Of a DNA stretch of 64,000 nt, positions 23,420 through 46,553 are shown piece after piece. The position numbers and the translations under genes were made by a program. This DNA comes from Apibacter sp. B3706 (GTDB lineage: Bacteria; Bacteroidota; Bacteroidia; Flavobacteriales; Weeksellaceae). The DNA lies in contig NZ_CP049715.1 in assembly GCF_011082725.1 (NCBI RefSeq), positions 1,798,001 through 1,862,000 on the forward strand. The letters are read 5' to 3'. Position 1 is the first letter of the stretch. Each line of letters begins with the position of its first letter. Below the pieces are notes generated by a model that was not told the DNA's origin, did no database searches, and worked only from the letters and a program-made list of their open reading frames with translations.

Positions 23420-23426
23420 AAATATC

Positions 23427-25789: not shown

Positions 25790-28700
25790 ATGCAAGAAAA
25801 AAAAGAGTTATTTGTTCTTTCTCCTTTTGAATTACCTGACGTTGATCTAGCCTTAAAAACTATTAAAACCGGGGCTTTTCCAATTCTACATTTAGGAAGA
25901 GATAAAAACAAAGCTATTCAAAGTTTAAATGAACTTTCTGAAAAAACAAGAGAATCATTTGGTGTATGTTTTGTGTCAGAATCAATGGCTGACCTTACAC
26001 TTCCTGAAAATGTAACAAAAATATTTATTCCTTTTAATTTTAAAATTTCTGTTAAAAAAAATATAGAAATTTTTCATCAAGTTCACTCATTGGATGAAGC
26101 AGAAGAAGCCATCAAAAAAGGGGTAGAATCAATTATATTAAAAGGAAATGAAGGAGCAGGAAAAGTGGCTTATGAATCCTCATACGTTCTTTTTCAAGGA
26201 ATCAAAAACAAGCACAAAAAATTAAAAACTAAAATTTACATACAAGGAGGAATGGGTATTCATACCTCTGCTGCTGCCTTAGCAATGGGGGCACAAGGTA
26301 TCATATTGGATAGTCAAATCGCTCTTTTTCCAGAATGTAGTATATCTAAAGATTTAAAAAATATTTTTAACAAGCTGAGTGGAAGCGAAACTGTTATTAT
26401 CGACAATTTCAGAATTTTACTTAGAAAAAATTCACCGGAATTACCAATACAAGCAAAATATGAAGATATTTTACCTTTTTTAGGCGGCCTGGATCTTTCT
26501 CAAAATATAATTCCTATGGGACAGGATATTTGCTTATCCGTGGATTTTGTAGAACGATACAAAAAGCTTGAAAATTTAATTATAGCTTTTCAAGAAGCTG
26601 CCTATGGGCATTTATTGCAAGCTAAAAATTTAAATATAATCGGAGAGAACAGCCCTCTTGCGAAAGAATTAGGAACCAGATTTCCAATCGCTCAAGGTCC
26701 TATGGCTCGAGTTAGTGACGTACCTGAATTTGCTGAAAAGATTGCCAATGAAGGTGGGGTTCCATTTATTGCAATGAGCTTAATGATTGGACAAGCAGCT
26801 AAAGATGCTGTTGAAAAAACACATGCACTATTAAAAGATAAGGCTTGGGGAGTAGGTATCTTAGGTTTTGCTCCGGCGCCATTGCGTGAAGAGCAAATGA
26901 AATACATCCTCGAAAATAAACCTCCTTTTATTATCATTGCAGGTGGAAGACCTTCATTAGCTAAACCTTATGAAAAGGAAGGTATCAAAGCATTTTTACA
27001 TGTACCATCTGTATCATTACTGGACATGTTCTTAAAAGAAGGTGCCAGAAATTTCATTTTTGAAGGAAGAGAAAGCGGTGGACATGTTGGCCCTTTACCT
27101 AGTATGGTTCTTTGGGAAAAACAAATCTATCGTTTATTAAAAGACGACCAACCAAGTACATTAAATATATTCTTTGCAGGAGGAATTCACGATGCATTTT
27201 CTTCCGCATTTATCTCTATTATGTCTGCATCCTTAGCAGCAAAAGGAGCTAAAATTGGTATACTGATGGGAACTTCTTACTTATTTACAAAAGAAGCTGT
27301 TGAAACGGGTGCTATTTCAGATGAATATCAAAAACAATCCGTAGCACATGATAAAACCGTTTTACTAGAAGCGGCTCCAGGTCAAGAAACCAGAGCTCTA
27401 CCTACCCCTTTTACCAAATTATTCGATCAAGAAAAACAACGATTATTTGCGGAAGGTTTAGATTCCAAAGAAGTTTGGTTGAAACTTGAAGAAATGAACT
27501 TGGGACGTCAAAGAATTGCTGCAAAAGGAATTGAAAGACAGGGTAAAGAACTTATCAAACTATCCAATGAAGACCAGTTAAATAAAGGGGTATTTATGAT
27601 TGGACAGGTTGGTGCTTTAAGAGGCAATTCAACTACCATAAAAGAACTCCACAAAGACGTAGCAATAGAAAACAATAAAGTTCTTTCAAAATTAGATAAT
27701 CTTACAGAACCAACTAAAGAACCTAGTGGTTCTAAATTGGCAATTGTAGGTATGGCAGGTATTTTTCCTCAAGCCCAAACGTTAGAGGAATACTGGAAAA
27801 ATATTTTGTCCGGTAAAGATTGTGTTACCGAAGTTCCTGATGACCGATGGAATAAAGAACTTTTCTATAATCCCGACACCAGAGATACTGATTTCGTTTC
27901 CTCTAAGTGGGGTGGTTTTATACCAACCATAGATTTTGACCCGTTAGAATTTGGTATCCCTCCTCAATCATTAGCTTCCATAGAACCGGTGCAGTTATTA
28001 AGCCTTTTAGTAGCTAAAAGAGCATTGGAAGATGCCGGTTATGACATGAAAACTTTCGATGGAGAAAATACATCTGTTATTATCGGTGCAGAAGGAGCAA
28101 CCGAATTAGCTTCAAGTTATGGATTCAGAGGATATGCAAAACAAGTTTTCGGAGATCTTCCTGAGGAACTTAAAAATATGCTTCCTAAACTTAATGAAGA
28201 TTCCTTCCCGGGGGTTTTATCCAATGTGGTGGCAGGTAGAATTACCAACAGGTTAAATTTAGGGGGTACCAACTATACTGTTGATGCTGCCTGTGGTGCA
28301 TCTCTTGCAGCAGTAGATATAGGATGCCAAGAATTACAAAATTATAGAACAGACATTGCCATCATAGGGGGAGCAGATTTACATAATGGTTTAAATGACT
28401 TTTTAATGTTCTCTGCAACACATGCCTTATCAAGAAAAGGAAAATGTGCTTCCTTCGATGCTAATTCTGATGGAATTGCTTTAGGAGAAGGAATTGGAAT
28501 GATTGTGGTTAAAAGACTGGAAGATGCAGAACGCGATGGAGACAGAATCTATGCCGTAATAAGAGGAACAGGTGCCAGCAGTGACGGTAAAAGCTTAGGT
28601 ATGACCGCTCCAAATAAAAGAGGTCAGATGAAAGCTCTACAAAGAGCCTATAAACATGCAGGTGTTTTGCCTTCAGAAGTTGAATTAATTGAAGCTCATG

Positions 28701-31700
28701 GAACAGGAACTGTTGTAGGTGATAAAACAGAATTAAGCGCATTGACTGAAATGTTTTTAGAGTCCGGAGCTTTAGTGGGACAAACTCATTTAGGGTCTGT
28801 AAAAACTCAAATCGGACATACTAAATGTGCTGCCGGTATGGCCGGATTGATTAAAACGGCTTTAGCAACCTATTACGGTATTCAACCGCCGACCATCAAT
28901 TTAACTAATCCGAATGCTTTTTATAACAAAGAAAGCAGTCCGTTTAAATTTAATACTAAAGCGGGAATCTGGAGCAGTGAAAGAAGAATATCCGGAGTAA
29001 GTGCGTTTGGTTTTGGTGGAACCAATTTCCATGTTGTAATGGAAAATTATAAATCAGAAATTCCTACTACAAGCAGCTTAACTTCTTGGCCTTCCGAATT
29101 ATTTGTTTTCAAAGGGGATAACTTACAAGAAGCCAAACAAATTGCTCAAAAAGTTAAAAATTTAATTGAAATAAACAGTTCTCTAAACTTAAAAGATATA
29201 GCTTATAGTTTAGCAACTGATAACAATAAAAATATTCAAGCTTCTATAGTAGCTTCCAATACTATTGAATTAAAAGATAAAATTGAATCTCTTCTTTCCA
29301 ATAAAGAAGAAGCGGGGATTTATCTAAGGGATCCTAAGGAAGGTAAAGTTGCCTTTTTATTTTCAGGACAAGGAAGTCAAAGAATTAATATGGCTCGTGA
29401 TCTTTTTGTGGCATTTCCTACTATGAGATCCTTATTAATTCAAAATAAAGAGGTTGAAAAAATATTATTCCCTCATGCGGTTTTTGATGATGAGAGTAAG
29501 AAATTACAGCAAACTACCATCACAAAAACTCAAAATGCCCAGCCATCATTAGGTATCGTTGATTATGCGATCGCCAGTTTTTTACGATCTTTAGAAATTG
29601 AACCGGATATGGTTGCGGGACACAGCTATGGAGAACTTCCTGCGCTTTGTTTTGCAGGAGTATTCAAACCTGAAGAATTAGTCTCTTTAAGTAGAAAAAG
29701 AGCCCATGCAATTTTAGATGCTGTTGGACAAGATAAGGGTAAAATGATTGCATTAAATCTACCGGAAGTAGAAATAAAATCATTACTCGAAGGAGAAAAA
29801 GAAGTTTGGGCCGTAAACTTCAATTCTATCAAACAAACCATTCTTGCCGGTTCTACTGCTGCAATGACTGAGTTTATGAAGAAACTTACGGATAAGAAAA
29901 TCACTTACAGAGAATTGGCCGTAGATTGTGCTTTCCACAGTCCACTATTGAATAAATCTACAGATTTATATTTGAAAGAGCTTTCTTCTGTTGATTTTAC
30001 TTCTCCGACGTTGTCCATATGGTCTAATACAACTGCAGAATTATACCCTTCCAAACCTGAAGAAATTAAAAATCGTTTAGCTGAGCATTTAATTAATCCT
30101 GTATACTTTACCAAAGAGGTTACGAATATGTATGCAGAAGGTGCGCGAATATTCATTGAAACCGGTCCGGGTAAAGTTCTCATAAATCTTGTTCAATCTA
30201 CTTTAGGTGCTCAAGAAATTACTACAATTCAAACCGAAGAAAAAGAAAAAGAAGGAATTACCTTTTTACTTAATGCATTAGCTAAATATATTGCTACCGG
30301 AAGAAATATAAATCTTGAAAAACTATTTGAAGGTAGAAAAGTTACTTCTATAAATTTTGATGAACCGGAAAAATATAAAAAGAGAGCTACAAACTGGCTT
30401 ATCAATGGCCATTATGCTATTCCTTCCGTAGGAAGCCTTCCTCCTAACGGAGCACTTCCAATTAGCAAACCGATAAATTTAAATTTTGGAGCTATTTCCG
30501 ATACTTATACCATGAATAACAATCTTACACAAGCGGATCATGTTATCCTTGAATATTTAGGAAACATGAGATCTATGATACAAAACCAAAGAGACGTCAT
30601 GTTAGGATACTTTGGTCAAAATCCAACAACTATTGCTGCTCCTCAAGCAACAACAACTATTCAAGTGCCTACTCAAAGCAATCAAATTGCTACTCCTCAA
30701 CCAACGGTGGTTGTTCCGGCTCAAGTCGCCGTACCGGTACATACAGTTGCTCAAAGTTCAGCTCCTGCATTATCAATTCAAGTAATCAAAGACACTTTGC
30801 TTGATACAGTAAGTGAAAAAACCGGATATCCTATTGATATGCTAGGTTTAGACATGGATCTGGAGGCCGACTTAAGTATAGATTCCATTAAAAGAATGGA
30901 AATAATTGGAGCTTTAAAAGAAAAATTAAAAATCAATGCTGATTTTGAAGAATCTGAAGATGCTATCGAAAAAATGGCTTCTATTAAAACACTTAGCGGG
31001 GTTATCGGATGGGTTGAAGAATTAGTAAAATCAGATCAACCCGTATCTCAAGAAGTTACTGTAGCTACAAATATATTACCTGCAGCAACTCCAAGTGCTA
31101 AGAAAGAAGCCCTTTCTTTGGAAGTGATTAAAGATGCTCTCCTTAATACCGTAAGTGAAAAAACAGGATATCCAATTGATATGTTAGGTTTGGATTTAGA
31201 TTTAGAAGCTGATTTAAGTATCGATTCCATTAAAAGAATGGAAATAATTGGAGCATTACGAGAAAGATTAAATATTACTTCTGATTTTGAGGAATCTGAA
31301 GATGCTATCGAAAAAATGGCCTCTATAAAAACATTAAACGGGGTTATCGGATGGATTGAAGATTTAGCAAATGGGGATTCTTCAGAAAAAACAGACAAGC
31401 AAATTGCAGCTTCACCGGCTGTAAATGAAATATCTTTTGATGCTGAATCAATTTCAGAATTAGAAAAAAACCTTGATTCAGCTAAAGACGAACCTCTTTT
31501 AAGAACTCGTTTTGAACTTGAAAAATATCCAATTAATGGATCAGATAAAATACAAATAGAAGGCAAAAAATTTGCAATTACTGATGATGGAAAATCTATG
31601 GCTAAAGATCTTAAAAAAGCTTTAGAAGCAAAAGGAGCTACAGTAGATATCATTTCAGACAGTAATACAAATCTTTCAAACTACGACGGTCTTCTTATTC

Positions 31701-32932
31701 TAGAGGTTTCAGAATCATCTAGGCATTATACTATTAAAGATGCTTTTACTCTTATAAAAAGTGCTGATATGGATCGTATTCAATGGATCTATAGCTTCAG
31801 TGACCTGATGGGTGATTTAGAAGGTAAAAAAGATATCAAAGAATTAAAGAAAATTCAAGGTTTTCCGGGATTAATCAAAAGTTTAGCTCGTGAATATTCT
31901 AAAATAAATTGTAGAGCTATTATATCTAATACTGTATTTACTTCTAAAAATTTAACGGAAATAGTTTTAAATGAAATACAAGCAAAAGACATTTCTGCTG
32001 AAGTCATTTATAAAGATACCGAACGTTTTCGTCTTAATTTAGTACCTGAAGCTCTTGCTGTAAATGGAAGCTCTAAATTAGACCTGGATAAAGAATCTGT
32101 AGTACTTGTTTTAGGAGGTGCTCAAGGAATTACCGCTGAATTAACTAATCAACTTTCTTCTGAATATCCTTGTCATTATATTTTGGTAGGACGTTCCGCT
32201 AAACCTACTGAGGAAGATAAAAAATACATTTCATTAAAAGATAAAAATGAAATCCGTAAATATCTTATCAATGAAGAGCAAATGAAAACTCCTACTGAAA
32301 TAGAGAAGAAAGCTCAAAAAATTGATAAAACCAATCAAATTATACAAACCATAGCCCAAATTGAAAAGTCAGGTTCTAAAGTAACATATGTTTCTTTAGA
32401 TGTAACAGATGAAAAAGGACTAAGGAAATTTATAAAAGATACGTACAAACAATACGGTAGAATTGACGGATGCATTCATGCAGCAGGACTTTTAGTTGAT
32501 AAGTTATTTACACATAAAACCCTTGAAGCATTCGAACAAGTTTATTCTACTAAAATAAATCCTTTACACGTACTGTTAGACGAACTTCATAGTGATATTA
32601 AATTCATTATTTTCTTCAGCAGCATCGCTTCTGTATACGGTAACAGAGGACAAACTGATTATGCTGCAGCCAACAGCGTGTTTGACATGATTTCGTGGGC
32701 TATCCAGGGAAAAACCAACGCCAGAGTTTTAGCTATTAATTGGGGACCTTGGAAAGGAGCAGGAATGGTATCCAGCTCTTTGGAAAATGAATTTAATAAA
32801 AGAGGTGTTGCTATGATTCCTTTAAAACAAGGAGCTCGTGAATTCGTTAACGAATTAAAATATGGTAATGATAACCAAGTTTTAATTATGGGAGGAAGTG
32901 ATCAAGGAGTTAAACAATTTTTCGGAATCTGA
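25790..32932 (+). CDS. Pfa-like type I synthase: NMO*-NMO-KS-AT-ACP-ACP-KR
   Basis: A 2380-residue iterative polyketide/secondary-lipid synthase. Residues 1-~270 form a degenerate nitronate-monooxygenase/PfaD-like barrel. Residues ~290-640 form a second, intact-looking barrel (FPIAQGPMARVSD; GRESGGHVG; FFAGGIHD), the type that is the enoyl reductase in PfaD. KS covers ~649-1085 with C835 (DAACGAS), H970 (EAHGTGT) and H1010 (IGHTKCAAGMAG). AT covers ~1186-1460 with S1279 in GHSYGE and a CAFHS motif that suggests malonyl units. Two nearly identical ACPs carry S1699 and S1813 in IDSIKRMEI, the PUFA-synthase ACP motif. KR covers ~2100-2380 (LGGAQGITAEL, SSIAS, TDYAAAN). It heads a seven-gene operon; the partner starts eight bases downstream. 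Confidence 0.93.
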   Translation: MQEKKELFVLSPFELPDVDLALKTIKTGAFPILHLGRDKNKAIQSLNELSEKTRESFGVCFVSESMADLTLPENVTKIFIPFNFKISVKKNIEIFHQVHSLDEAEEAIKKGVESIILKGNEGAGKVAYESSYVLFQGIKNKHKKLKTKIYIQGGMGIHTSAAALAMGAQGIILDSQIALFPECSISKDLKNIFNKLSGSETVIIDNFRILLRKNSPELPIQAKYEDILPFLGGLDLSQNIIPMGQDICLSVDFVERYKKLENLIIAFQEAAYGHLLQAKNLNIIGENSPLAKELGTRFPIAQGPMARVSDVPEFAEKIANEGGVPFIAMSLMIGQAAKDAVEKTHALLKDKAWGVGILGFAPAPLREEQMKYILENKPPFIIIAGGRPSLAKPYEKEGIKAFLHVPSVSLLDMFLKEGARNFIFEGRESGGHVGPLPSMVLWEKQIYRLLKDDQPSTLNIFFAGGIHDAFSSAFISIMSASLAAKGAKIGILMGTSYLFTKEAVETGAISDEYQKQSVAHDKTVLLEAAPGQETRALPTPFTKLFDQEKQRLFAEGLDSKEVWLKLEEMNLGRQRIAAKGIERQGKELIKLSNEDQLNKGVFMIGQVGALRGNSTTIKELHKDVAIENNKVLSKLDNLTEPTKEPSGSKLAIVGMAGIFPQAQTLEEYWKNILSGKDCVTEVPDDRWNKELFYNPDTRDTDFVSSKWGGFIPTIDFDPLEFGIPPQSLASIEPVQLLSLLVAKRALEDAGYDMKTFDGENTSVIIGAEGATELASSYGFRGYAKQVFGDLPEELKNMLPKLNEDSFPGVLSNVVAGRITNRLNLGGTNYTVDAACGASLAAVDIGCQELQNYRTDIAIIGGADLHNGLNDFLMFSATHALSRKGKCASFDANSDGIALGEGIGMIVVKRLEDAERDGDRIYAVIRGTGASSDGKSLGMTAPNKRGQMKALQRAYKHAGVLPSEVELIEAHGTGTVVGDKTELSALTEMFLESGALVGQTHLGSVKTQIGHTKCAAGMAGLIKTALATYYGIQPPTINLTNPNAFYNKESSPFKFNTKAGIWSSERRISGVSAFGFGGTNFHVVMENYKSEIPTTSSLTSWPSELFVFKGDNLQEAKQIAQKVKNLIEINSSLNLKDIAYSLATDNNKNIQASIVASNTIELKDKIESLLSNKEEAGIYLRDPKEGKVAFLFSGQGSQRINMARDLFVAFPTMRSLLIQNKEVEKILFPHAVFDDESKKLQQTTITKTQNAQPSLGIVDYAIASFLRSLEIEPDMVAGHSYGELPALCFAGVFKPEELVSLSRKRAHAILDAVGQDKGKMIALNLPEVEIKSLLEGEKEVWAVNFNSIKQTILAGSTAAMTEFMKKLTDKKITYRELAVDCAFHSPLLNKSTDLYLKELSSVDFTSPTLSIWSNTTAELYPSKPEEIKNRLAEHLINPVYFTKEVTNMYAEGARIFIETGPGKVLINLVQSTLGAQEITTIQTEEKEKEGITFLLNALAKYIATGRNINLEKLFEGRKVTSINFDEPEKYKKRATNWLINGHYAIPSVGSLPPNGALPISKPINLNFGAISDTYTMNNNLTQADHVILEYLGNMRSMIQNQRDVMLGYFGQNPTTIAAPQATTTIQVPTQSNQIATPQPTVVVPAQVAVPVHTVAQSSAPALSIQVIKDTLLDTVSEKTGYPIDMLGLDMDLEADLSIDSIKRMEIIGALKEKLKINADFEESEDAIEKMASIKTLSGVIGWVEELVKSDQPVSQEVTVATNILPAATPSAKKEALSLEVIKDALLNTVSEKTGYPIDMLGLDLDLEADLSIDSIKRMEIIGALRERLNITSDFEESEDAIEKMASIKTLNGVIGWIEDLANGDSSEKTDKQIAASPAVNEISFDAESISELEKNLDSAKDEPLLRTRFELEKYPINGSDKIQIEGKKFAITDDGKSMAKDLKKALEAKGATVDIISDSNTNLSNYDGLLILEVSESSRHYTIKDAFTLIKSADMDRIQWIYSFSDLMGDLEGKKDIKELKKIQGFPGLIKSLAREYSKINCRAIISNTVFTSKNLTEIVLNEIQAKDISAEVIYKDTERFRLNLVPEALAVNGSSKLDLDKESVVLVLGGAQGITAELTNQLSSEYPCHYILVGRSAKPTEEDKKYISLKDKNEIRKYLINEEQMKTPTEIEKKAQKIDKTNQIIQTIAQIEKSGSKVTYVSLDVTDEKGLRKFIKDTYKQYGRIDGCIHAAGLLVDKLFTHKTLEAFEQVYSTKINPLHVLLDELHSDIKFIIFFSSIASVYGNRGQTDYAAANSVFDMISWAIQGKTNARVLAINWGPWKGAGMVSSSLENEFNKRGVAMIPLKQGAREFVNELKYGNDNQVLIMGGSDQGVKQFFGI

Positions 32933-32940
32933 GTATAACT

Positions 32941-35900
32941 ATGAAAGATACAGATATTGCAATTGTAGGAATGTCTTGTTTCCTTCCAGGAGCAAATAAT
33001 ATCAATGATTTTTGGAACAATTTATTGAAAGGAACTTCTTCCATAACTGATGTTCCTGAAGAAAAAATTGATTCAATCTACTTTAAAAATAATTTAAATA
33101 AATTAGATCATATTTATTGTAATAAAGGAGGATTTATTCCTCCTATTACAATTGATCCATCTAAAATAGGAATAACACCGGAACAGGTACAGCACTTAGA
33201 CCCTACACAACTTTTAGTAATAAAATTAGTCTATCAAGCATTAGAGGATGCTTCTGTATTTGAAAAAAATATTTCTTTAAAGAAATCTTCGATTATAATC
33301 GGAAAAGAAAATTACATTAGTTCCAATGACTTAAAATGGATCGATATTGTTCGTACCAGCGAGCAACTTGCTTTAGCCATTAAAAATATACTTCCGTCCA
33401 TTTCCGATCAAGACATTGAAAAAGTTAAAGAGGCTTTTCAAAAGGATAAAGGGGCTCAAGAAAATAAATTACAACTTGAACATACGACAAAGTCAATTGC
33501 GGGAATAGTTTCCTCTCATTTTAATACTGAAGGTACTGCCTATACCATCGATGCATCCGAAGTAAGTTCATTACTTGCTGTTGAACAATCAATACAGGAA
33601 TTACTTGCTAATAAGGTCGAAATTGCAATCGCAGGAGGTATGCAATTTAGCCAAAACTCTCCTTATTGGAGTATGTTTTCAAAATCGGGTTTATTATCTC
33701 ATAAACAAGAAATTAAACCTTTTAATGAAGATGCTGACGGTATTTTATTAAGTGAAGGAGCCGGATTTATTGTACTAAAAAAATTAAGTAAAGCTCTTTC
33801 CGATAATGATCGTATTTATGCTGTAATTAAAGGGGTGGGAATTGCTTCCAATAGAAATAATTTTTCAAACGGACAAAAAACTGCTATTCAGGAGGCTTGG
33901 AAAAATGCAAAAGTTAAATCTGAAAATATCGGATATATAGAGGCTAACGGCACAGCTATTAAAAACGATGATAAAATTGAGATTGATGTGCTTTCTGAAC
34001 TATTCAAAGATGGAAAAGTTTTAATCGGATCGGTAAAATCAAATATCGGACATACTCTTTCTGCGTCCGGTATGGCCGGTTTAATTAAAACTGCACTTTC
34101 TTTATATAATAAGAAAATTCCTGTAACTCTGAATTGTGAAAATCCTAATAATTCACTTAAAAATACACAAATTACACCCGTTACCGAAATAATCGATTGG
34201 AATGAAAAAGAAATTCCATTACATGCAGGGGTTAGCGCATTTGGTATTGACGGAATGAGTGCACACGTTGTTTTACAGGCACATAGTCATTCCGAGGAAA
34301 ACAACTCTTCAATTCCGGTTTTTGACAACGAAGCGATAGCTATTTCCGCTTCATCTAAAGAGGCGTTAATTAAAGCTTTAGATAAAAGAAATTTTTCCTT
34401 ATCTGATCCAAACGGTACTTATCGATTAGTTCTTTTTAATCCGACATCGGATCGTATTGAAAAAGCTAAAAAATTAATTTCAAAAGATAAGCCTTGGAAA
34501 GGAAGACAAGATATTTGGTTCTCAAACAAACCACTTTTAAGAAATAATGAAAAAATAGCTTTCTTATTTCCGGGATTCGATCCTTCATCTAATCCGGAAG
34601 TAGAAAGTATTGCAAAATATTTTGGGTATAAAATACCTAAAGAAAGAATTACAGGTAATTTATTACTTGACCAGTCTTTTAAACAATTTCACGGAGGTGA
34701 AATTATAGACGGAGCGTTAAAAAAAATGGGTATAATACCCGATTTAACTGCAGGGCATAGTTTAGGAGAATGGTTCGCAGCAAAATCAGGTGGTCTGGTT
34801 TCTGATGAATCCGTTGAAAATTTATTAAATTCAATGGATCCGGAAAAATACAATATGGACGATGTGTATTTTATCGCCGTAGGCGCCGGTACAGAAACAG
34901 TAAATCCCATTTTAGATGGAATCCAGGATCTTTACCTGTCTAATGATAATTGTCCCAACCAAGTTCTTTTGTGTGGAACAGAAACAGCAAAAGATCAATT
35001 AATACAAATCTTAAAATCTAAAAGTATATTTTATCAAGTTTTAGATTTTAAATCGGGCTTTCATTCACCATTCCTAAAAAAGAAGCTTTATTTACTGGAC
35101 GATCTTAATTACATTAAGATTGAAAAAAATGACATTCCGGTTTGGTCGGCCACTACCCTAGATGTTTACCCGCATGATTTTGAATCTTTCAAAGAATTAA
35201 CCATGCAACATCTAACTCAAGCCGTTCTTTTTCGTGAATTAATTGAAAAATTATATGAAAAAGAAAATGTTAGATTTTTTATACAAATAGGAAGTGGAAG
35301 TTTAATTGGTTTTGTGGATGATATTCTTAAAAATAAAGAATATGCTGCAATATCGGCTACAGTTCCTAAACTTTCAACTTTGGAACAATTGAGAAGGGTA
35401 CTTTCTTTATTATTCATTGAAGGTAAAGAAATTAATACTTCTTTCATAGGTCTTAAAAATAAGGAAACTTCTTCTATCGAAGAGATTCAAGTTTTTGAAA
35501 ACCAATCTTTAGTAAAAAACTTTCCTTTATTACAGGAATTATCCAATAAATATAAAATTCATACTACCGAATCAGATTCTATAAATTCTCTTTTCATTAA
35601 ATCCAATCATCCGGTTATTCAAGCGATGAATGAGTATACCCAAGAACTTATTCTCATGCAAAAGGAATTTACTGAAATGGTTGAAACAAGAAAAGCATTT
35701 GCATCAAATTCTGATTATTTAGTTACTGATTTTGTACCCTTAAAAGAATATGCTCCTCAACCAATTATTCCAAATACGGTTACTCAAGAGATAAAAGTTG
35801 GAAGTTCTTTTGAAGAAAAATTAGATATCGACTTAAAGAATTATCCTTATATAATAGATCATTCTTTATTCAGACAACCTAAAAATTGGAAAGTTGTTGA

Positions 35901-37266
35901 AGATATGTGTCCGGTTATACCTATGACCATGACTTTTGAACTATTAATAGAAGCAGCTCATAAACAAAACTTAAATAAAAAGGTTCTTCGTTTGGGTCCT
36001 GTAAGTGTTTTCCAATGGATGAAAGTATATAAACCTTTCCAACATACCATTGAAGGAACTTGGAAAACTGAAAATGTAGTTTCTTTGAAAATCAAAAATT
36101 TCGCAAATGGAGATGTAACTTTAGGCGATGCATATCCAAGTGCAGACCCTGCTTATCTTGAAAATATTGATTTTGGAGAAAATGCGGTAGCTCTCCCTAC
36201 TCCGGAAATTATTTATAAAGATCATATGTTCCATGGTCCCGGATATCAAGGTATTTTAGAAGTTACAAACATTTCTAAAAAAGGATTAAGAGCCATTGTT
36301 AAGAAATCCTTTGGTAAAGGTTCTTTAATGGATACTATTGGTCAACTTTATGGCTTATATCTTCAATTGATGTTAGAGGGAGAATCTAAAGTTAGTTTTC
36401 CGGTAAAAATTGAAGAAATTAATTTCTATCAAGATGTAGAAGATCAAGAAGGAATTTTTGAATGTATTTGTCTTCCTACCTCCTATGTAGATAAATTGGC
36501 AACTGCCGATATTATCATGAAACGCGACGGAAAAATTTGGTGTATAATTAAAAATTGGAAAAATCAAATATTTGAAGGTTTTGACACCAGGCTATGGAAT
36601 ACGAATATGAGTCCGGCGGATCATATTTTGGCAAATGAAATAGCACCGAATGTTTATTTCTTCGATGACCGATATAAAAAAGCTGTTAATCAAGATTTCT
36701 TGATGCATATATATTTAAACACTGAAGAAAAACGTCGATATGATTCTTTAATGTTAAATAAGAAAAAAGATTTCTTAATCAGTCGTGTATGTGTAAAGGA
36801 TAGTGTTAGAGATTACATCAATAACCAAAATGGTATAAAATATTTCCCTATAGAATTTTCTATTCAGCATGACGAAAAAAATAAGCCATCCATACACGGG
36901 GTTCCGGAAACTAAGTCATTAGAAATTTCAATTGCTCATAAAGGAAGCAATACGGTAAGTATGGTATCTAATAAGCCGGTAGGGATTGATATAGAAACCA
37001 TTGAGGAACGTGACAAAGGCTTTTTAGATATTGCATTCACAGATAAAGAACTTACTCTTATTAAATCAAAAGAAAATATAGCAGAATGGAGCACTCGTTT
37101 TTGGGTAGCTAAAGAAGCCTATGGAAAAATGCTTGGTGTTGGATTAAACGGAAATCCTAAGCAATATGAAGTAACATCTATTGATGGTGAAAATTTAACT
37201 ATCAATGAAACTATAATAAAAACAATTAAACATAATAATAAATTCATAATCGGATGGACTCTATAG
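32941..37266 (+). CDS. Pfa-like synthase partner: CLF-like KS-AT-DH-phosphopantetheinyl transferase
   Basis: A 1441-residue second synthase subunit. The N-terminal KS fold (~1-450) is complete, but the nucleophile position is glutamate (E207 in IDASEVSS) and the first histidine is N336 (EANGTA). Only H371 is kept, so it should act like a chain-length factor rather than condense. An AT-like domain (~540-830) keeps the serine in GHSLGEW (S607) and GFHS. A PS-DH-type double hot-dog lies at about 960-1210, with H974 (IIDHSLF) and a DxxxQ motif (D1131-Q1135). The C-terminus (~1270-1441) is an Sfp-type phosphopantetheinyl transferase (SIAHKG, VGIDIE, FWVAKEAYGKMLG), which would activate the ACPs. 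It overlaps the ACP gene by 13 bases. Confidence 0.9.
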   Translation: MKDTDIAIVGMSCFLPGANNINDFWNNLLKGTSSITDVPEEKIDSIYFKNNLNKLDHIYCNKGGFIPPITIDPSKIGITPEQVQHLDPTQLLVIKLVYQALEDASVFEKNISLKKSSIIIGKENYISSNDLKWIDIVRTSEQLALAIKNILPSISDQDIEKVKEAFQKDKGAQENKLQLEHTTKSIAGIVSSHFNTEGTAYTIDASEVSSLLAVEQSIQELLANKVEIAIAGGMQFSQNSPYWSMFSKSGLLSHKQEIKPFNEDADGILLSEGAGFIVLKKLSKALSDNDRIYAVIKGVGIASNRNNFSNGQKTAIQEAWKNAKVKSENIGYIEANGTAIKNDDKIEIDVLSELFKDGKVLIGSVKSNIGHTLSASGMAGLIKTALSLYNKKIPVTLNCENPNNSLKNTQITPVTEIIDWNEKEIPLHAGVSAFGIDGMSAHVVLQAHSHSEENNSSIPVFDNEAIAISASSKEALIKALDKRNFSLSDPNGTYRLVLFNPTSDRIEKAKKLISKDKPWKGRQDIWFSNKPLLRNNEKIAFLFPGFDPSSNPEVESIAKYFGYKIPKERITGNLLLDQSFKQFHGGEIIDGALKKMGIIPDLTAGHSLGEWFAAKSGGLVSDESVENLLNSMDPEKYNMDDVYFIAVGAGTETVNPILDGIQDLYLSNDNCPNQVLLCGTETAKDQLIQILKSKSIFYQVLDFKSGFHSPFLKKKLYLLDDLNYIKIEKNDIPVWSATTLDVYPHDFESFKELTMQHLTQAVLFRELIEKLYEKENVRFFIQIGSGSLIGFVDDILKNKEYAAISATVPKLSTLEQLRRVLSLLFIEGKEINTSFIGLKNKETSSIEEIQVFENQSLVKNFPLLQELSNKYKIHTTESDSINSLFIKSNHPVIQAMNEYTQELILMQKEFTEMVETRKAFASNSDYLVTDFVPLKEYAPQPIIPNTVTQEIKVGSSFEEKLDIDLKNYPYIIDHSLFRQPKNWKVVEDMCPVIPMTMTFELLIEAAHKQNLNKKVLRLGPVSVFQWMKVYKPFQHTIEGTWKTENVVSLKIKNFANGDVTLGDAYPSADPAYLENIDFGENAVALPTPEIIYKDHMFHGPGYQGILEVTNISKKGLRAIVKKSFGKGSLMDTIGQLYGLYLQLMLEGESKVSFPVKIEEINFYQDVEDQEGIFECICLPTSYVDKLATADIIMKRDGKIWCIIKNWKNQIFEGFDTRLWNTNMSPADHILANEIAPNVYFFDDRYKKAVNQDFLMHIYLNTEEKRRYDSLMLNKKKDFLISRVCVKDSVRDYINNQNGIKYFPIEFSIQHDEKNKPSIHGVPETKSLEISIAHKGSNTVSMVSNKPVGIDIETIEERDKGFLDIAFTDKELTLIKSKENIAEWSTRFWVAKEAYGKMLGVGLNGNPKQYEVTSIDGENLTINETIIKTIKHNNKFIIGWTL

Positions 37267-37553
37267 AAAAACAAAAAGAAACTATTTTTGAATCACTTAA
37301 AAAATTTATTACTGAAGTAATTGGCGAAGACGTAGCGGAAGAATTAACTATTGAACCGGAAAGTGTTTTTACCAGAGATTTGGAAATGGACAGTATTGAA
37401 ATTGTTTCATTTGCGGAGAAAGTAAAAGCTACCTATGGTGACAATATAGATTTTAATGGCTGGTTATCAGGTATGGATATGGATCAATTAATCAATTTAT
37501 CAATCAACGATGTTGTTAATTATATTGTAGATGCCAATAATTCAGATAAATAA
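37254..37553 (+). CDS. discrete acyl carrier protein of the synthase operon
   Basis: A 99-residue carrier protein. The phosphopantetheine attachment serine is in DLEMDSIEIVSFAEKV (near residue 46), preceded by FTRDL, and the helix III region has LSINDVVNYIV. It is not the fatty-acid AcpP, which is encoded separately at 46314-46553. Its ATG lies inside the last codons of the synthase partner gene, and its 3' end overlaps the hydrolase gene by 23 bases, so translation is probably coupled. It may carry the starter or the finished chain for release; this is inferred from position. Confidence 0.9.
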   Translation: MDSIEKQKETIFESLKKFITEVIGEDVAEELTIEPESVFTRDLEMDSIEIVSFAEKVKATYGDNIDFNGWLSGMDMDQLINLSINDVVNYIVDANNSDK

Positions 37554-38292
37554 CAGAAAAACTCACATCTTAGAACTCAATCCGGAAGCTTCCGAAACAA
37601 TTGTAATGGTTCATGGTATGTTTACCAATTTATCCATATTTTATTTTAATATAGCTCCGGAACTTGCTAAAAAATATCACGTGGTTATGTATGATTTACG
37701 TAGCCACGGCCTTAGCGGCAAAATTGATAATGGGTATGATTTAGAAACTCTTTCTAATGATTTGATGGATCTTTTAAATCATTTAAATTTATCAAAAGTT
37801 GATCTTGTAGGCTATAGTTTTGGTGGTTTAATAGCTTTATATACTGCAATTCACCATCAGGATAAAATAAAAAAACTTGCTATTATCGATTCTCCTATTA
37901 CAGATAAAAATGGAGATACAGAGCAAATTCTTGAAAAATATGGTAATGAGTATATCGAACACTATATGAAAAATTATAGTATTTCAACAAATATTACTCC
38001 TAATAACAAACAGCTTGAAAAAAGTAAAAAATTATTTGATTTTCTACTTCATGAAACTTCGATGCCTCAAGATTTAATAAAGGATAAGAATTTTTCAACA
38101 GAAAAAAATATGAGTCTCATAAAAAATAAAACATTATTACTTTATGGGAATGAATCGGATTGTTTACCGGATGGGAAGTTATTAAATACCTATATTCCTG
38201 ATTCAACCTTATTTTCAGGAACAGGAGATCATAACATTCCAATTCAAAACCCTGAATGGATTAACGAAAAACTGAGTGAATTTTTTACTTAA
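37531..38292 (+). CDS. alpha/beta-fold hydrolase, probable chain-releasing thioesterase
   Basis: A 253-residue alpha/beta hydrolase. The oxyanion-loop motif is VMVHGMFTN, the nucleophile elbow is GYSFGG (S96), the acid is probably D210 in GNESD, and the histidine is H234 in GDHNIP, so the triad looks complete. The start at 37531 overlaps the ACP gene; the frame has no better start downstream. Since neither synthase has a terminal thioesterase or reductase, this enzyme is the best candidate to hydrolyse or transfer the finished chain. That function is inferred from context and could instead be editing. Confidence 0.85.
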   Translation: MPIIQINNRKTHILELNPEASETIVMVHGMFTNLSIFYFNIAPELAKKYHVVMYDLRSHGLSGKIDNGYDLETLSNDLMDLLNHLNLSKVDLVGYSFGGLIALYTAIHHQDKIKKLAIIDSPITDKNGDTEQILEKYGNEYIEHYMKNYSISTNITPNNKQLEKSKKLFDFLLHETSMPQDLIKDKNFSTEKNMSLIKNKTLLLYGNESDCLPDGKLLNTYIPDSTLFSGTGDHNIPIQNPEWINEKLSEFFT

Positions 38293-38307
38293 TAAATTAA
38301 TTACTAG

Positions 38308-39495
38308 ATGGCAAAATTTACTTTCATAGTTCCTCCCCTTACAGGTCATATTAATCCAACATTAAGCCTTGGAAATGAACTTTTAAATAGAAACCATGAA
38401 GTTACCTGGTATAGTTTAGATGCTAATTTAAAAGCTCAATTGCCTGAAAAAGGCCAATTAGTTGTTCTTCCTTTAGAAATGGATGAAATGGCAAAAAAAA
38501 AGCTTTTTGAACATGCTCAAGAGCTTCAAAAAAAGAAAGTATATGGAATAGACAGTCTTAAATTTTTATATGAAGAAGTTCTCACTCCCATGAATTCATT
38601 AATGATGAATGGGATTGAAAATGCATTAGATGAATATAAACCGGATGTGGTGATTTCCGATCATCAAATTTTTGCCGGAGCTGTTGCTTCATTCAAAAAA
38701 AATATTCCTTATGCTACTTCCGTTACTGCACCGGCATCAATTAAAGTTAATCCTTCGTTTCCAAAAATTCATGAATGGGAAGGTGAACAGGTTATAGCTT
38801 TTCAAAATAAATACGGTGTTTCCGGATATGATCGTCTTGATTGTTCTAAATTATTAACTTTGGTATACACCTCAAGAGAATTTTTCGGTGAAACCGATTT
38901 GCCATCCAATTACAAATTTATAGGACCTGTACTATCACCACGCACTCAAAAAATTAATTTTGATTGGGAAAAACTAGAAAAAATGGGTCAAGATCGTCCC
39001 AAGATTTTAGTAAGTATAGGAACCACATTTGATCATACACAAAAGAAACAATTTTTCAGTAAAGTTGTTGAGGCTTTTGGGGGAGAAAATATTACTGTTA
39101 TTGTAGTATCCGATCCTGATTTATTTGAAAATATTCCAGATAATTTTATTATCCAAAAGAATATACCCCAACTTGAAATAATTCAACAGATGCAAGCAGT
39201 GGTATGTCATGGAGGAAATAATACGGTCTGTGAATCTCTGTCTTACGGTATTCCTTTAGTAGTTATTCCCATTGCTTACGACCAATCTTTTGTATCCAGT
39301 TGCGTTACAGATAGTGGTGCAGGTATACGTTTAAATTTTAATCGTTTTAAAACTTCTCATCTAAAAGAAGCTGTTGAATCACTATTAAATCAGAAATCAT
39401 TTAGTGAAAATGCAAAAATGATTCAAAGTTCATTTGAAAAAGCAGGAGGAGTGAGTAAAGGAGCAGACTATTTACAAACATTAGTAAAAAATTAA
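38308..39495 (+). CDS. GT1 (macrolide/UGT-like) glycosyltransferase, copy 1
   Basis: A 395-residue GT-B-fold glycosyltransferase of the GT1/MGT type, which transfers a sugar from a nucleotide donor to a small lipophilic acceptor. The N-terminal motif VPPLTGHINPTLSLG places the catalytic histidine at H14. The donor-binding C-terminal domain has VVCHGGNNTVCESLSYGIP (H301) and VIPIAYDQ. It is 42-odd percent-like by eye to the next gene, with which it shares order and length, so the two are probably duplicates; no alignment was run. It follows the hydrolase by 15 bases. Donor and acceptor are unknown; the acceptor is likely the synthase product. Confidence 0.9.
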   Translation: MAKFTFIVPPLTGHINPTLSLGNELLNRNHEVTWYSLDANLKAQLPEKGQLVVLPLEMDEMAKKKLFEHAQELQKKKVYGIDSLKFLYEEVLTPMNSLMMNGIENALDEYKPDVVISDHQIFAGAVASFKKNIPYATSVTAPASIKVNPSFPKIHEWEGEQVIAFQNKYGVSGYDRLDCSKLLTLVYTSREFFGETDLPSNYKFIGPVLSPRTQKINFDWEKLEKMGQDRPKILVSIGTTFDHTQKKQFFSKVVEAFGGENITVIVVSDPDLFENIPDNFIIQKNIPQLEIIQQMQAVVCHGGNNTVCESLSYGIPLVVIPIAYDQSFVSSCVTDSGAGIRLNFNRFKTSHLKEAVESLLNQKSFSENAKMIQSSFEKAGGVSKGADYLQTLVKN

Positions 39496-39500
39496 ACATT

Positions 39501-40694
39501 ATGTCAAAATTCTTATTTGTTGTCCCTCCTTTTTTTGGGCATATCAATCCCAGTCTAAGTATAGGTAGAACTTTATTAGAAAACGGTCATGAAGTCGCAT
39601 GGGCCGGATTAACCGAAATAAAACCTGAAACTATACCCGCAGGCGGTACTTTTTTTATATTAAAAGAATCATATCAAGAAAATAAAGAAGAAATACAAGA
39701 TATTATTAAACTACAAGACAGAGGGGCTAAATTACCTGCTTTGGAAGCATTAAAATTGGGACTTCAGGGTACTTATATTCCTTTTGCCAGAATAATGTAT
39801 GCCGAGCTTTCTAAGTTAGTAGATACTTATAAACCGGATGTTATAATCAATGACTGTATTACATTTGCGGGAGCATTTGTAGCTCATGTTAAAAAAATTC
39901 CATTGGCTACGATCACTCCTGTTACCCCAAATACACTTCATGATCCGGGGACAGCACCAAAAGTAACTCAATGGGTGCATGATTCAATCATAAATTTGCA
40001 AAAATCCTTAGGTATATCGGGTGATGAAGAATTAATTTCTTCTAAAGAAGTTAATATGTTTTATACCTCTCAAAAATTTGCAGGATATAATGATGGAGAA
40101 TATCCTTCGTATATGAAATTTATCGGAGCTTTAACCGGTCGCCCGGATAATACTCCTTTTGATTGGGACAGATTGAATAAAGATAAAAATCCTAAAATAT
40201 ATATATCTTTAGGTACTGTCCTGGTAGATATCAGAAAAGAGTTTTTCACTAAAATGATTGAGGCTCTTAAAGATAAAAACGTAACTGTTGTTGCGGCAAC
40301 AGACCCTTCTATTATAGAAAAATGGCCGGATAATTTTATTGTACAAAGTTATGTGCCACAACTTGAACTTTTAAAGCATATTGATGTAGTAATTGGTCAT
40401 GGAGGATTAAATACCGTTTGTGATACTTATATGAATGGTATTCCAATGCTCATAATACCTATAGCTTTTGACCAATCTCATACAGCCACTTTAATTGAGC
40501 AATACGGATGCGGCATACGGCTAAAATACAAACGTATGAGAATTATTGATATAGAACATGCGGTTGACGAATTATTATATAATGAAAAATATAAAAAAGC
40601 AGCAAAAGAAATTCAAGAATCTTTCATTGAAGCCGGAGGAAATAAAAAAGCTGCAGAGCTCATCGAAAATCTAGTTATTAAGAATAAGATATAA
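39501..40694 (+). CDS. GT1 (macrolide/UGT-like) glycosyltransferase, copy 2
   Basis: A 397-residue GT-B-fold enzyme paralogous to the preceding one. It keeps H14 in VPPFFGHINPSLSIG and the donor motif VIGHGGLNTVCDTYMNGIP (H300), followed by IIPIAFDQ. The acceptor-side N-terminal half differs more between the two copies than the donor half, fitting two successive sugar additions to different acceptors. It starts five bases after copy 1. Sugar identity cannot be read from the sequence. Confidence 0.9.
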   Translation: MSKFLFVVPPFFGHINPSLSIGRTLLENGHEVAWAGLTEIKPETIPAGGTFFILKESYQENKEEIQDIIKLQDRGAKLPALEALKLGLQGTYIPFARIMYAELSKLVDTYKPDVIINDCITFAGAFVAHVKKIPLATITPVTPNTLHDPGTAPKVTQWVHDSIINLQKSLGISGDEELISSKEVNMFYTSQKFAGYNDGEYPSYMKFIGALTGRPDNTPFDWDRLNKDKNPKIYISLGTVLVDIRKEFFTKMIEALKDKNVTVVAATDPSIIEKWPDNFIVQSYVPQLELLKHIDVVIGHGGLNTVCDTYMNGIPMLIIPIAFDQSHTATLIEQYGCGIRLKYKRMRIIDIEHAVDELLYNEKYKKAAKEIQESFIEAGGNKKAAELIENLVIKNKI

Positions 40695-40717
40695 GTAAAA
40701 TATTTAATTTTTATAAA

Positions 40718-42286
40718 ATGGAAAAAACTTCTGAAAGAAATATTTACTTTTTGCTATTTATATATGTATTAAGTGTTTTATTCATATGCTCAAAGATGTC
40801 CCCTCTTTATACTACAAATGAATGGGCAGATCCTAACATTTATTTTAATGTTGCAAAAGGAATGGTTAATGGAAGGGCTTTATATACTGAAATTTTCGAT
40901 CATAAAGGGCCTTTCATATTTTTTATTTATGCAGCCGGATATATAATTTCCAATGAAAATTTTTTCGGGATGTTTTTAATTGAATTAGCCTCCTGGTTTA
41001 TTTTAGCATTGTCTTTATATTCTTCTTCTAGATTATTCTTAGGTAAATTCATTTCTTTTGTAATTACCACCGCATTCTTTATTTTTATAATTAAAATTAT
41101 GAAAGCGGGAGGTTCTGCTGAAGAATTTATTTTATGTATGGAAGGGGTCACCTTATACTTATTTTTTAAATATTTTAAATCTGACAATCCTATTCACAAG
41201 CCTATATATATGTTTATTAATGGTTTGTTAGTAACTGCTGTGTTATATACTAAAATAAATCTTATAGCATTTTGGATTTTCCCACTTTCAGCGATATTTA
41301 TTAATATTTTATACCATAAAGAATATAAAAACTTTTTATACAATATTTTAGCATTTATTTTAGGGTTTTTATTCATTAGTATTCCTGTTATTGGATATCT
41401 ATACACACATAATTGTTTAGAAGAGGCTTATAAAATATATATTGAGTTGAATAGTGCTTATGCAAAATTAGGAACTCCTAAGGATATTGTTTTAAGACTA
41501 TTGGCAAGAATTCTTTATTTATTTTTAGAACCCACCTGTTTGTTTTTACTTGCTTTTATGGGAATATTTTTATTTCCATTCAAGCACATTAAAAATATAT
41601 TTGCTAAACTTGGAATAGTATTTTCCGGATTTATTTTGTATTCGGTAATATTTATGGGTAAATTTCAATATTATTATCCTATACCTTTTTTAATTTTCGG
41701 GTTTATAGGTTTTATATATGTTGGAGCCATATTCCAAAAATGTTTTGGCTCATTTTATATAAACTCAAGTAAAACATTATTTTTTACTATGTTGGTATTC
41801 GTATTTACCTGTGCGGGCATGTCAGGACTTGATAATACGCGCATAGAAGAATGGATATTAACGGATGAAAATTATGACCGAAAAGCTTTAATGACCATGA
41901 GGTTAAAAAAAGAAATTATGAAAGAAAATAATCCTACTTTATTAAATTTAGGATTTGGTCTGGCAAATAATCTTTTTACTACATGTAATATAGTACCTAA
42001 TATTAAGTATTTTGTTACTCCTAATCTTTCTCATAAATTTTATCCTCAATTAAGAGACGAACAATTTCAATATTTAAAAGATAAAAAAACGGATTTTGTT
42101 ATCATACAACAATACATTCCTAGTAATGGATATTATGATAAAATGGATTCTATTGATACGCCGTATAGTTTAAAACGAAATCCATTCTTATTGGAAAATT
42201 ATAAATTAATTCTTACCGATACGATCATTAATACAATTGATGAAAGATCAGTTGATATTTATTTTCTATATAAGAAAAAACCCTAA
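40718..42286 (+). CDS. GT-C-like multi-pass membrane glycosyltransferase (GT39-like)
   Basis: A 522-residue polytopic membrane protein with about ten hydrophobic helices and a soluble C-terminal part of ~140 residues. The first extracytoplasmic loop after helix 1 has E35 and D38 in NEWADPN, followed by GRALYTEIFDHKGPFIFFIY. This arrangement is seen in lipid-linked-sugar-dependent GT39/ArnT-like enzymes, where the acidic residue is catalytic. It is the last gene of the synthase operon, 23 bases after the second GT1. It could add a sugar outside the inner membrane after export. The family call is moderate and the substrate unknown. Its stop codon lies inside the first terminator hairpin. Confidence 0.72.
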   Translation: MEKTSERNIYFLLFIYVLSVLFICSKMSPLYTTNEWADPNIYFNVAKGMVNGRALYTEIFDHKGPFIFFIYAAGYIISNENFFGMFLIELASWFILALSLYSSSRLFLGKFISFVITTAFFIFIIKIMKAGGSAEEFILCMEGVTLYLFFKYFKSDNPIHKPIYMFINGLLVTAVLYTKINLIAFWIFPLSAIFINILYHKEYKNFLYNILAFILGFLFISIPVIGYLYTHNCLEEAYKIYIELNSAYAKLGTPKDIVLRLLARILYLFLEPTCLFLLAFMGIFLFPFKHIKNIFAKLGIVFSGFILYSVIFMGKFQYYYPIPFLIFGFIGFIYVGAIFQKCFGSFYINSSKTLFFTMLVFVFTCAGMSGLDNTRIEEWILTDENYDRKALMTMRLKKEIMKENNPTLLNLGFGLANNLFTTCNIVPNIKYFVTPNLSHKFYPQLRDEQFQYLKDKKTDFVIIQQYIPSNGYYDKMDSIDTPYSLKRNPFLLENYKLILTDTIINTIDERSVDIYFLYKKKP

Positions 42287-42306: not shown

Positions 42307-42341
42307 AAAAAAGAGTTCAGTTTATAACTGAACTCTTTTTT
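42307..42341. terminator. bidirectional intrinsic terminator between the synthase operon and pyk
   Basis: Perfect 11-bp stem AGAGTTCAGTT/AACTGAACTCT with a three-base loop, flanked by A6 and T6 tracts, so it works on either strand. It separates the convergent membrane protein gene and pyk. Confidence 0.92.
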
Positions 42342-43789: not shown

Positions 43790-44271
43790 TATGTAGGTAA
43801 TATCAAATTTTCTAAATTTTTTATTTTAATTTTATCTATATTTATTTCACTAAATTTATAAATATTTTTAAGATTTCCCAAATTTATATAGAATTCTTCA
43901 TCTAATATGACATCTGATTTTAAGAAATAATTGTAATATTTATATTCAGGGATTAAAATTTTAACTTTTTCGATCTGGTCAAAAAAACTTTCGTTTTCAT
44001 GTATGGTTTGAGGAAAGGAGAAGTTACTTATTAATTCTAATTTTTGTTTAGTCTTTTCGTGGAAAAACCTATAAATTGAGAAAATATAAGTAATCCCATC
44101 TTCTATTATTTGCTGGTCATTGACTCGCTTAAAATTAAGGTTACAATTCTTATTTAAATAGAATACAAAATCATAATCTTTATTAATACAGGTTTTAAAT
44201 CCTAATAAATTAAAATCAAATATTGGATCATTTACTTCCCAATCTAAAGAATATGTTTTTAGTATACTCAT
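43789..44271 (-). CDS. IPExxxVDY family protein (diverged motif)
   Basis: A 160-residue cytoplasmic protein of unknown function. In Bacteroidota a gene of this family usually lies between rnc and pyk, exactly as here. The naming motif is present at residues 107-115 as IPEYKYYNY, so the VDY part reads YNY; the following FLKSD is typical. Its start overlaps the rnc stop by four bases (ATGA). The family call rests on position plus the partial motif. Confidence 0.8.
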   Translation of the reverse strand: MSILKTYSLDWEVNDPIFDFNLLGFKTCINKDYDFVFYLNKNCNLNFKRVNDQQIIEDGITYIFSIYRFFHEKTKQKLELISNFSFPQTIHENESFFDQIEKVKILIPEYKYYNYFLKSDVILDEEFYINLGNLKNIYKFSEINIDKIKIKNLENLILPT

Positions 44272-45020: not shown

Positions 45021-45039
45021 TTGTTAGTAATCTCTTATT

Positions 45040-46290: not shown

Positions 46291-46313
46291 ACTTGAATGT
46301 GTCTTTGTGTAAA

Positions 46314-46553
46314 TTATTGTTTGTTTACTTCTTCAATATAAGAAATGGCTTGACCAACTGTTGAAATCTTTTCTGCTTGATCATCAGGTATTTGAATATC
46401 AAATTCCTTTTCAAACTCCATGATTAATTCTACTGTGTCTAATGAATCTGCCCCCAAGTCATTTGTAAAACTTGCTTCTGGTGTAACTTCGCTTTCATCT
46501 ACTCCTAGTTTATCTACGATGATAGCTTTTACTCTTGATGTAATGTCAGACAT
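46314..46553 (-). CDS. acpP: acyl carrier protein
   Basis: The 79-residue fatty-acid AcpP. The phosphopantetheine serine is S37 in [15 protein letters not shown], and the acidic helix II is typical. It is the first gene of the acpP-fabF-rnc-IPExxxVDY-pyk operon. A TAnnTTTG element lies 33 bases upstream. Confidence 0.98.

Follow-up and report, generated by a model that had tools for sequence, protein, structure and literature searches.

A predicted operon of seven genes that probably directs the synthesis of a glycolipid was identified in a 64,000-nt stretch of the genome of Apibacter sp. B3706 (NZ_CP049715.1, positions 1,798,001 to 1,862,000; the window), a genome that consists of one 2.30 Mb contig. 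Judging from the encoded proteins, the lipid chain would be assembled by an iterative fatty acid synthase/polyketide synthase (FAS/PKS) formed by two large proteins (P1 and P2), handed to an alpha/beta hydrolase and glycosylated by two GT1 glycosyltransferases (GTa and GTb). The product would then be acylated in relatives outside the genus, and in Apibacter it would receive a further sugar from a probable GT-C membrane enzyme (gene 7). A Pfa-like synthase coupled to glycosyltransferases, with a glycolipid or glycosylated polyketide as its likely product, had been proposed earlier for this locus (the original prediction), and the conserved gene order, glycosyltransferase fusion and PapA-like enzymes described below support it.

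Distribution of the core and its tailoring genes

A profile search of genome contigs with an alignment of the dehydratase (DH) and phosphopantetheinyl transferase (PPTase) domains returned 144 relatives, possibly leaving out records very near the window's genome, and locus counts use the best 80 of these. Five loci belong to the window's genus (four from Apibacter and one from a Flavobacteriaceae metagenome-assembled genome (MAG)), and the 75 non-Apibacter loci come from Pedobacter, Chryseobacterium, Mucilaginibacter, Flavobacterium, Niabella, Taibaiella and a Sphingobacteriaceae MAG. Among the best 80, the closest named locus is that of Apibacter mensalis, with 96% identity over the enoyl reductase (ER) region of P1. 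The six-gene core (P1, P2, a free-standing acyl carrier protein (ACP), the hydrolase, GTa and GTb) was found by tblastn in this order on one strand in 79/80 loci, the contig of the remaining locus (L061) beginning inside P2. Moreover, GTa and GTb are fused in 32 of the 80 loci, made up of all 29 from Chryseobacterium and three from Flavobacterium, and in none of the other 48.

Two PapA-like acyltransferases were present in 74 of the 75 non-Apibacter loci (the contig of L122 ends after the first), and some loci, mostly those of Mucilaginibacter, contain three. These proteins keep the HxxxD motif and match the Pfam families Condensation, AATase and PapA_C, and the best PDB match of their profile is a phthiocerol/phthiodiolone dimycocerosyl transferase (8s6l, E 6.8e-23). 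A small membrane protein was also detected in 73/75 of these loci (not found in L075, cut in L122); the queries for both kinds of gene came from L050, which shares a contig with L065. In the five Apibacter-type loci neither an acyltransferase nor the small membrane protein was found, and gene 7 is there instead. Fused glycosyltransferases beside paired acyltransferases, behind a lipid-type synthase, would be best explained by an acylated glycolipid.

Gene 7 encodes a polytopic protein with nine hydrophobic windows, and four of six aligned members match PMT_2 (best E 1.8e-8), which makes a GT-C enzyme a probable although weak assignment. Homologues occurred in 7/149 genomes, all in the genus and including the window's own, that is, in seven of the nine genus genomes. 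The donor motif of GTb likewise separates the genus from its relatives, being D-Q in all seven genus operons and D-H in all 75 non-Apibacter loci. In plant UGTs, 55 of 56 glucosyltransferases have Gln as the equivalent final residue and four of six galactosyltransferases have His, an exception being the galactosyltransferase studied in that work, which ends in Gln (PMC10934233); applied to GTa and GTb by analogy, this rule is a lead only.

A soluble glycosylated polyketide, antibiotic- or signal-like, instead of a surface glycolipid, would agree with the best match of both glycosyltransferases to the macrolide-family model TIGR01426 (197.7 and 196.4, although below the cut-off of 260), and could be exported by the MATE-family transporter encoded directly upstream of all seven genus operons, including that of the window. 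However, the PapA-like pair and small membrane protein of the relatives point to lipidation, and the synthase is of PfaA type with a full reductive set, so that such a product appears unlikely.

In a sample of the order, 27 of 395 genomes had a match at E<=1e-50 (three of the window's genus including its own, 23 of genus g20 and one of g35). In a class sample, with at most three candidates scored per genome, full-length matches were found in two of 395 genomes, the window's own included, and 58 more matched over the PPTase part only. In Pedobacter panaciterrae O48, the cluster is present twice on one contig (L067 and L068), about 70 kb apart, in opposite orientation and with the same identities; either the cluster was duplicated recently or the assembly has produced the second copy.

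Synthase proteins and proposed pathway

P1 has the PfaA-type arrangement of ketosynthase (KS1), acyltransferase (AT1), tandem ACPs and ketoreductase (KR), with the corresponding residues conserved, and scores 1030.6 bits against the PfaA model TIGR02813 (cut-off 1010.1). Residue counts refer to 80 alignment rows for P1, which is split over two open reading frames (ORFs) in L118, and to 81 rows for P2. The N-terminal part of P1 holds two NMO-like barrels. The first is degenerate in the window; it matches Pfam NMO above the cut-off in L078 (E 7.4e-8), and may either work together with the ER or be a mere relic. The second is a FabK-like ER, which keeps its GGH motif in 80/80 rows and matches the FabK family model at E 1.6e-34, yet below the model cut-off. 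The reductase had been described as PfaD-type, a label that is not supported in the strict sense. Other NMO matches in the genome, considered as a possible separate PfaD, fall in a 491-aa protein that was read by eye as an IMP dehydrogenase, and this candidate was rejected.

In P2, the DH domain of the window protein had no Pfam match at E<=0.01, and a PS-DH match in one relative (E 0.0016) was below the cut-off. An AlphaFold model (pLDDT 88, built from 16 sequences) had as its best fold match MlnB, a polyketide DH domain (TM 0.74, E 5e-14), and no FabA protein was among its 50 listed fold matches. His974 and Asp1131 are presumably the catalytic residues of this DH. Pfam gave no FabA-type DH/isomerase match for either protein at E<=0.01, in agreement with the earlier statement that no FabA-like DH was seen. 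The domains listed in the original prediction were recovered, the DH by its fold model, but a second acyltransferase (AT2), the degenerate barrel and the decayed nature of the second ketosynthase (KS2) had been missed.

Gaps aside, the catalytic residues of KS1, both ATs, the ACPs, KR, ER and DH are conserved in the rows examined. Against two close species, dN/dS was 0.015-0.204 per segment of P1 and P2 and 0.042-0.135 for genes 3-7 (in the second comparison, 0.122 for GTa and 0.135 for gene 7), and the operon is under purifying selection. The free-standing ACP matches Pfam below the cut-off, as it does the NCBIfam ACP models (E 1.5e-6). The alpha/beta hydrolase, previously called a probable thioesterase, retains its Ser and His and is probably either a thioesterase or an acyl transferase.

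From these features we infer each chemical step, as well as how long the chain is, which sugars are used, where they are attached, in what order the events occur and how the product is exported. P1 and P2 would act jointly as one iterative FAS/PKS, its ACPs being activated by the PPTase domain of P2. AT1 would load malonyl units onto the tandem ACPs and KS1 would condense them, reduction being the task of the KR of P1, of the DH, supplied in trans by P2, and of the FabK-like ER in the N-terminal half of P1. The chain, probably long and with a hydroxyl or carboxyl on offer, would reach the hydrolase through AT2, the free ACP or both; the hydrolase would release or transfer it, and two sugars would be added, by GTa and then by GTb. 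In non-Apibacter relatives, the glycoside would then be O-acylated by the two PapA-like acyltransferases; in Apibacter, the GT-C enzyme would probably add a further sugar at the outer face, and the adjacent MATE protein could serve in export, perhaps before the GT-C step.

Several observations weigh against a glycolipid made in this way. Non-lipid polyketides, too, are substrates of GT1 enzymes and of acyltransferases resembling condensation domains, so that a glycosylated polyketide other than a surface lipid has some probability. The PfaD family model TIGR02814 had no match in the genome at E<=0.001, and the guessed catalytic acid of the hydrolase, Asp210, is Asp in nine loci and Asn in 71. 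For gene 7, the window protein had no meaningful Pfam match, and its structure model was poor (pLDDT 50.7) and too weak for a fold search. Two of the nine genus genomes (G005 and G006), both fragmented into about 230 contigs, were found without gene 7 and P1. A scan for sigma-70-like promoters gave 60 sites versus 77.7 expected, with no excess, and a Bacteroidota-type pattern had no match upstream of the operon. The link to the MATE gene is restricted to the genus. The other six genus operons also have the gene directly upstream, with 63-92% identity over those portions of it that were retrieved; in two of the six, from genomes G003 and G001, no pyruvate kinase gene was found downstream. No MATE gene was recognised beside the five non-Apibacter operons with the upstream flank read.

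Decay of the second ketosynthase in the genus

The Cys-His-His triad of KS2 is intact in all 74 non-Apibacter loci holding this domain (L061 is cut before it), and KS2 is broken in varied ways in six of the seven genus operons and deleted in the seventh. The Cys site is occupied by Glu in the window, L052 (genome G008) and L053 (G004), by Tyr in L054 (G003) and by Thr in genome G007; L055 (G001) keeps the Cys and has the first His replaced by Asn. Across the genus operons, the first His is changed to Asn or Ser. In Apibacter adventoris (L056, G002), the domain is wholly deleted, leaving a P2 of 969 aa.

The ratio of KS2 to KS1 divergence was 3.5-7.3 in six pairs among the window, L052, L053 and L054, and 1.9-2.7 in four pairs with L055. 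Maxima in non-Apibacter pairs at KS1 distances of 0.01-0.03, 0.02-0.05, 0.15-0.20 and 0.20-0.25 were 3.09 (96 pairs), 2.59 (190), 1.86 (448) and 1.52 (1130), respectively, and the largest in any band examined was 3.36. Thus, each of the ten genus pairs lies above its own control band, the pairs sharing ancestry and not being independent. The KS2/AT2 contrast was weaker: the ratio was 0.99-1.71 within the genus, and of 2700 non-Apibacter pairs four reached 1.5 or more, the highest value in the distance bands being 1.76. In the comparisons with two close species, dN/dS was 0.119 and 0.150 for KS2 versus 0.015 and 0.019 for KS1; KS2 is therefore still constrained and may have a structural role in Apibacter.

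KS2 had been described as resembling a chain length factor (CLF). As a functional category this fails because the relatives carry an intact KS triad, and the KS-CLF pair of polyunsaturated fatty acid (PUFA) synthases has no counterpart here, KS2 being a regular KS outside the genus and either damaged or missing within it. Within Apibacter, KS2 could have become a true CLF-like partner, its loss of Cys being adaptive and KS2 and KS1 together setting chain length, as its purifying selection and the full-length P2 in six of the seven genus operons might imply. This is doubtful, since the residues at the Cys site differ across the genus (Glu three times, Tyr, Thr and Cys once each) and the first His varies, a needed CLF should not vanish as it has in A. 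adventoris, and the divergence of the ten genus pairs exceeds the non-Apibacter maxima at similar KS1 distance.

A second P1-P2 copy with an intact KS2 triad (L144, G001:C54) was observed in the MAG Im510_bin53, and no glycosyltransferase homologue was found beside it in the stretch read. In a FastTree phylogeny of 34 chosen of the 80 loci with the window, G007, this second copy and three KS2 outgroups, it branches next to the Apibacter clade (support 0.97).

The decay of KS2 accompanies the loss of the acyltransferases, the gain of the membrane protein and the change from His to Gln in GTb. A broader and more tentative proposal, somewhat short of an even chance, is that PapA-acylated diglycosyl polyketide lipids occur across soil and insect-associated Bacteroidota as a Gram-negative counterpart of mycobacterial PKS/PapA glycolipids, and that insect-gut Apibacter has rebuilt them as more glycosylated, non-acylated products through four linked changes, namely KS2 death, loss of both acyltransferases, a GTb donor switch and gain of a membrane glycosyltransferase.

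Operon borders, known systems and implications

The seven plus-strand ORFs and their spacings (+8, -13, -23, +15, +5 and +23, in order) were recovered as originally given (Table 1). The promoter-like element once placed ahead of them has no statistical support in the two promoter scans; the string TATATTTG is present in only four of seven aligned upstream stretches, and the candidate was dropped. The strong terminator was sustained in part: a 16-bp hairpin (z -5.9) lies 3' of the operon, but a consensus terminator scan did not list it, and terminators were not in excess (7 versus 8.6 expected).

Table 1. Features of the operon and its immediate borders (window coordinates; HMM, hidden Markov model)
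Feature	Coordinates	Strand	Basis or remark
MATE-family transporter	24251..25615	+	Directly upstream of operon; may act as exporter or flippase
P1, 2380 aa: NMO-like barrel, FabK-like ER, KS1, AT1, two DSIK ACPs, KR	25790..32932	+	HMM domains
First, degenerate NMO-like barrel, P1 residues 1-285	25790..26644	+	Pfam NMO E 0.0016, below cut-off
FabK-like FMN enoyl reductase, P1 residues 286-640	26645..27709	+	7l00 FabK match, E 9.2e-25
KS1	27725..29089	+	Cys835/His970/His1010 in 80/80 rows
AT1 (GHSYG)	29345..30319	+	HMM and alignment
Two tandem ACPs	30767..31339	+	Ser1699 in 80/80 rows; Ser1813 in 79/80, one gap
KR	32099..32830	+	Ser/Tyr/Asn in 79/80 rows, one gap
P2, 1441 aa: KS2, AT2, DH, PPTase	32941..37266	+	HMM domains (KS, AT, PPTase)
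KS2, catalytically broken here	32941..34320	+	Glu207 at Cys site, Asn336 at first His
AT2 (GHSLGE)	34321..35520	+	Ser607 and His708 in 81/81 rows
Polyketide-type double-hotdog DH	35761..36585	+	His974 and Asp1131 in 81/81 rows; fold
PPTase domain	36724..37263	+	HMM and alignment
Free-standing ACP	37254..37553	+	Ser47 in 80/80 loci
Alpha/beta hydrolase	37531..38292	+	Ser96 and His234 in 80/80 loci
GTa, GT1 glycosyltransferase	38308..39495	+	Donor site D-Q in 80/80 loci
GTb, GT1 glycosyltransferase	39501..40694	+	Donor site D-Q here
Gene 7, polytopic membrane protein, probable GT-C (PMT_2-like) glycosyltransferase	40718..42286	+	5/80 loci
Terminator hairpin	42307..42341	+	Between operon and convergent pyruvate kinase gene

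A histidine kinase and a response regulator (21863-24131, +) directly precede the MATE gene and may be regulatory. Close downstream (44268-46535, -) are genes for ribonuclease III, a FabF-like KS and an ACP, probably housekeeping genes of fatty acid synthesis. Elsewhere in the window are a 3091-aa protein whose sole Pfam match is a C-terminal CHU_C type IX secretion signal (549-9824, -) and a 1927-aa ORF with no Pfam match at E<=0.001 (51463-57246, -). Outside the genus, flanks were read upstream in Chryseobacterium (two), Pedobacter (one), Taibaiella (one) and Mucilaginibacter (one) and downstream in one Chryseobacterium and one Pedobacter, with no recognised neighbour in common outside the genus Chryseobacterium. 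In G005 and G006, the contigs that carry the MATE homologues (41-43%) are 4.7 and 5.0 kb long and hold other genes beside them, and their comparison as empty sites says nothing on insertion or loss.

Enediyne PKSE is a single protein with the order KS-AT-ACP-KR-DH-PPTase; here the domains are spread over two proteins, with an ER added. The DH is polyketide-type and not the FabA-type DH/isomerase of PUFA (eicosapentaenoic/docosahexaenoic acid) synthases. A polyunsaturated or conjugated polyene, made in the manner of a PUFA or enediyne synthase by an ER that acts in some rounds only, is an unlikely product. It would fit the PfaA score of P1 and a DH beside a PPTase, as in PKSE, but has against it the absence of a FabA-type match at E<=0.01 in both proteins and the FabK-like ER with conserved motifs fused to P1 in all 79 loci holding P1.

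Mycobacterial phenolic glycolipid and sulfolipid systems combine a PKS with PapA-like acyltransferases and glycosyltransferases. The operon, with the 8s6l match in its relatives, resembles them in this combination and differs in synthase family, in phylum and in the lack of acyltransferases in Apibacter; it would work like these systems without being a member of them.

The operon is a variant of a kind of Pfa-like cluster reported in Bacteroidota in 2011, and no characterised product was found in the open-access literature of PubMed Central (subscription papers lie outside this scope). The designation "undescribed" holds only in part. In that study, Shulse and Allen listed, as Type N, pfa-like clusters without a known product from two species, Chitinophaga pinensis and Chryseobacterium gleum (PMC3098273). 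Both kinds are pfa-homologous Bacteroidota clusters with a PfaA-type KS-AT-ACP-KR core and an uncharacterised product; in the present operon, the PfaA-like protein carries the ER as an N-terminal fusion, the polyketide-type DH and PPTase lie fused in a second protein, and glycosyltransferases follow. The two are likely identical, as compared by description only, C. gleum and C. pinensis being outside the 80 loci. In addition, antiSMASH region 2.2 of Chryseobacterium herbae (hglE-KS, T1PKS, terpene; 495,527-554,653) is reported to have no similarity to known clusters (PMC10459008). It appears to contain a homologue of the operon, as L103, on NODE_2 of the same strain (515,173-536,777), falls inside it if 2.x denotes contig 2.

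Other pfa-like hybrids have been described, including an Ottowia ER-fused PfaA homologue. Judged by its description, the pfaD-pfaA cluster of Ottowia thiooxydans shares with the operon the ER fused to a PfaA homologue, a glycosyltransferase and a pfaBC fusion without canonical KS-CLF, and adds NRPS (nonribosomal peptide synthetase) and PKS modules (PMC13291983). In the heterocyst glycolipid (hgl) island of cyanobacteria, a long chain made by a pfa-related FAS/PKS is glycosylated by a glycosyltransferase, HglT (PMC3098273, PMC11804610), and the cluster has KS-CLF-AT without the pfaC DH/I (PMC3098273). Unlike hgl, compared here by description only, the operon encodes a DH of polyketide type and a tandem pair of GT1s, and its relatives add PapA-like enzymes.

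The glycolipid proposal predicts a concrete lipid class in the culturable genera Chryseobacterium and Pedobacter. The KS2 domain, whose triad the relatives keep and Apibacter has lost by mutation or deletion, would offer a natural test of the paired-KS role in Pfa-like synthases. Moreover, the free-living and insect-gut versions of the operon would form a natural pair for studying the remodelling of a surface or secreted lipid in a lineage that lives with a host.

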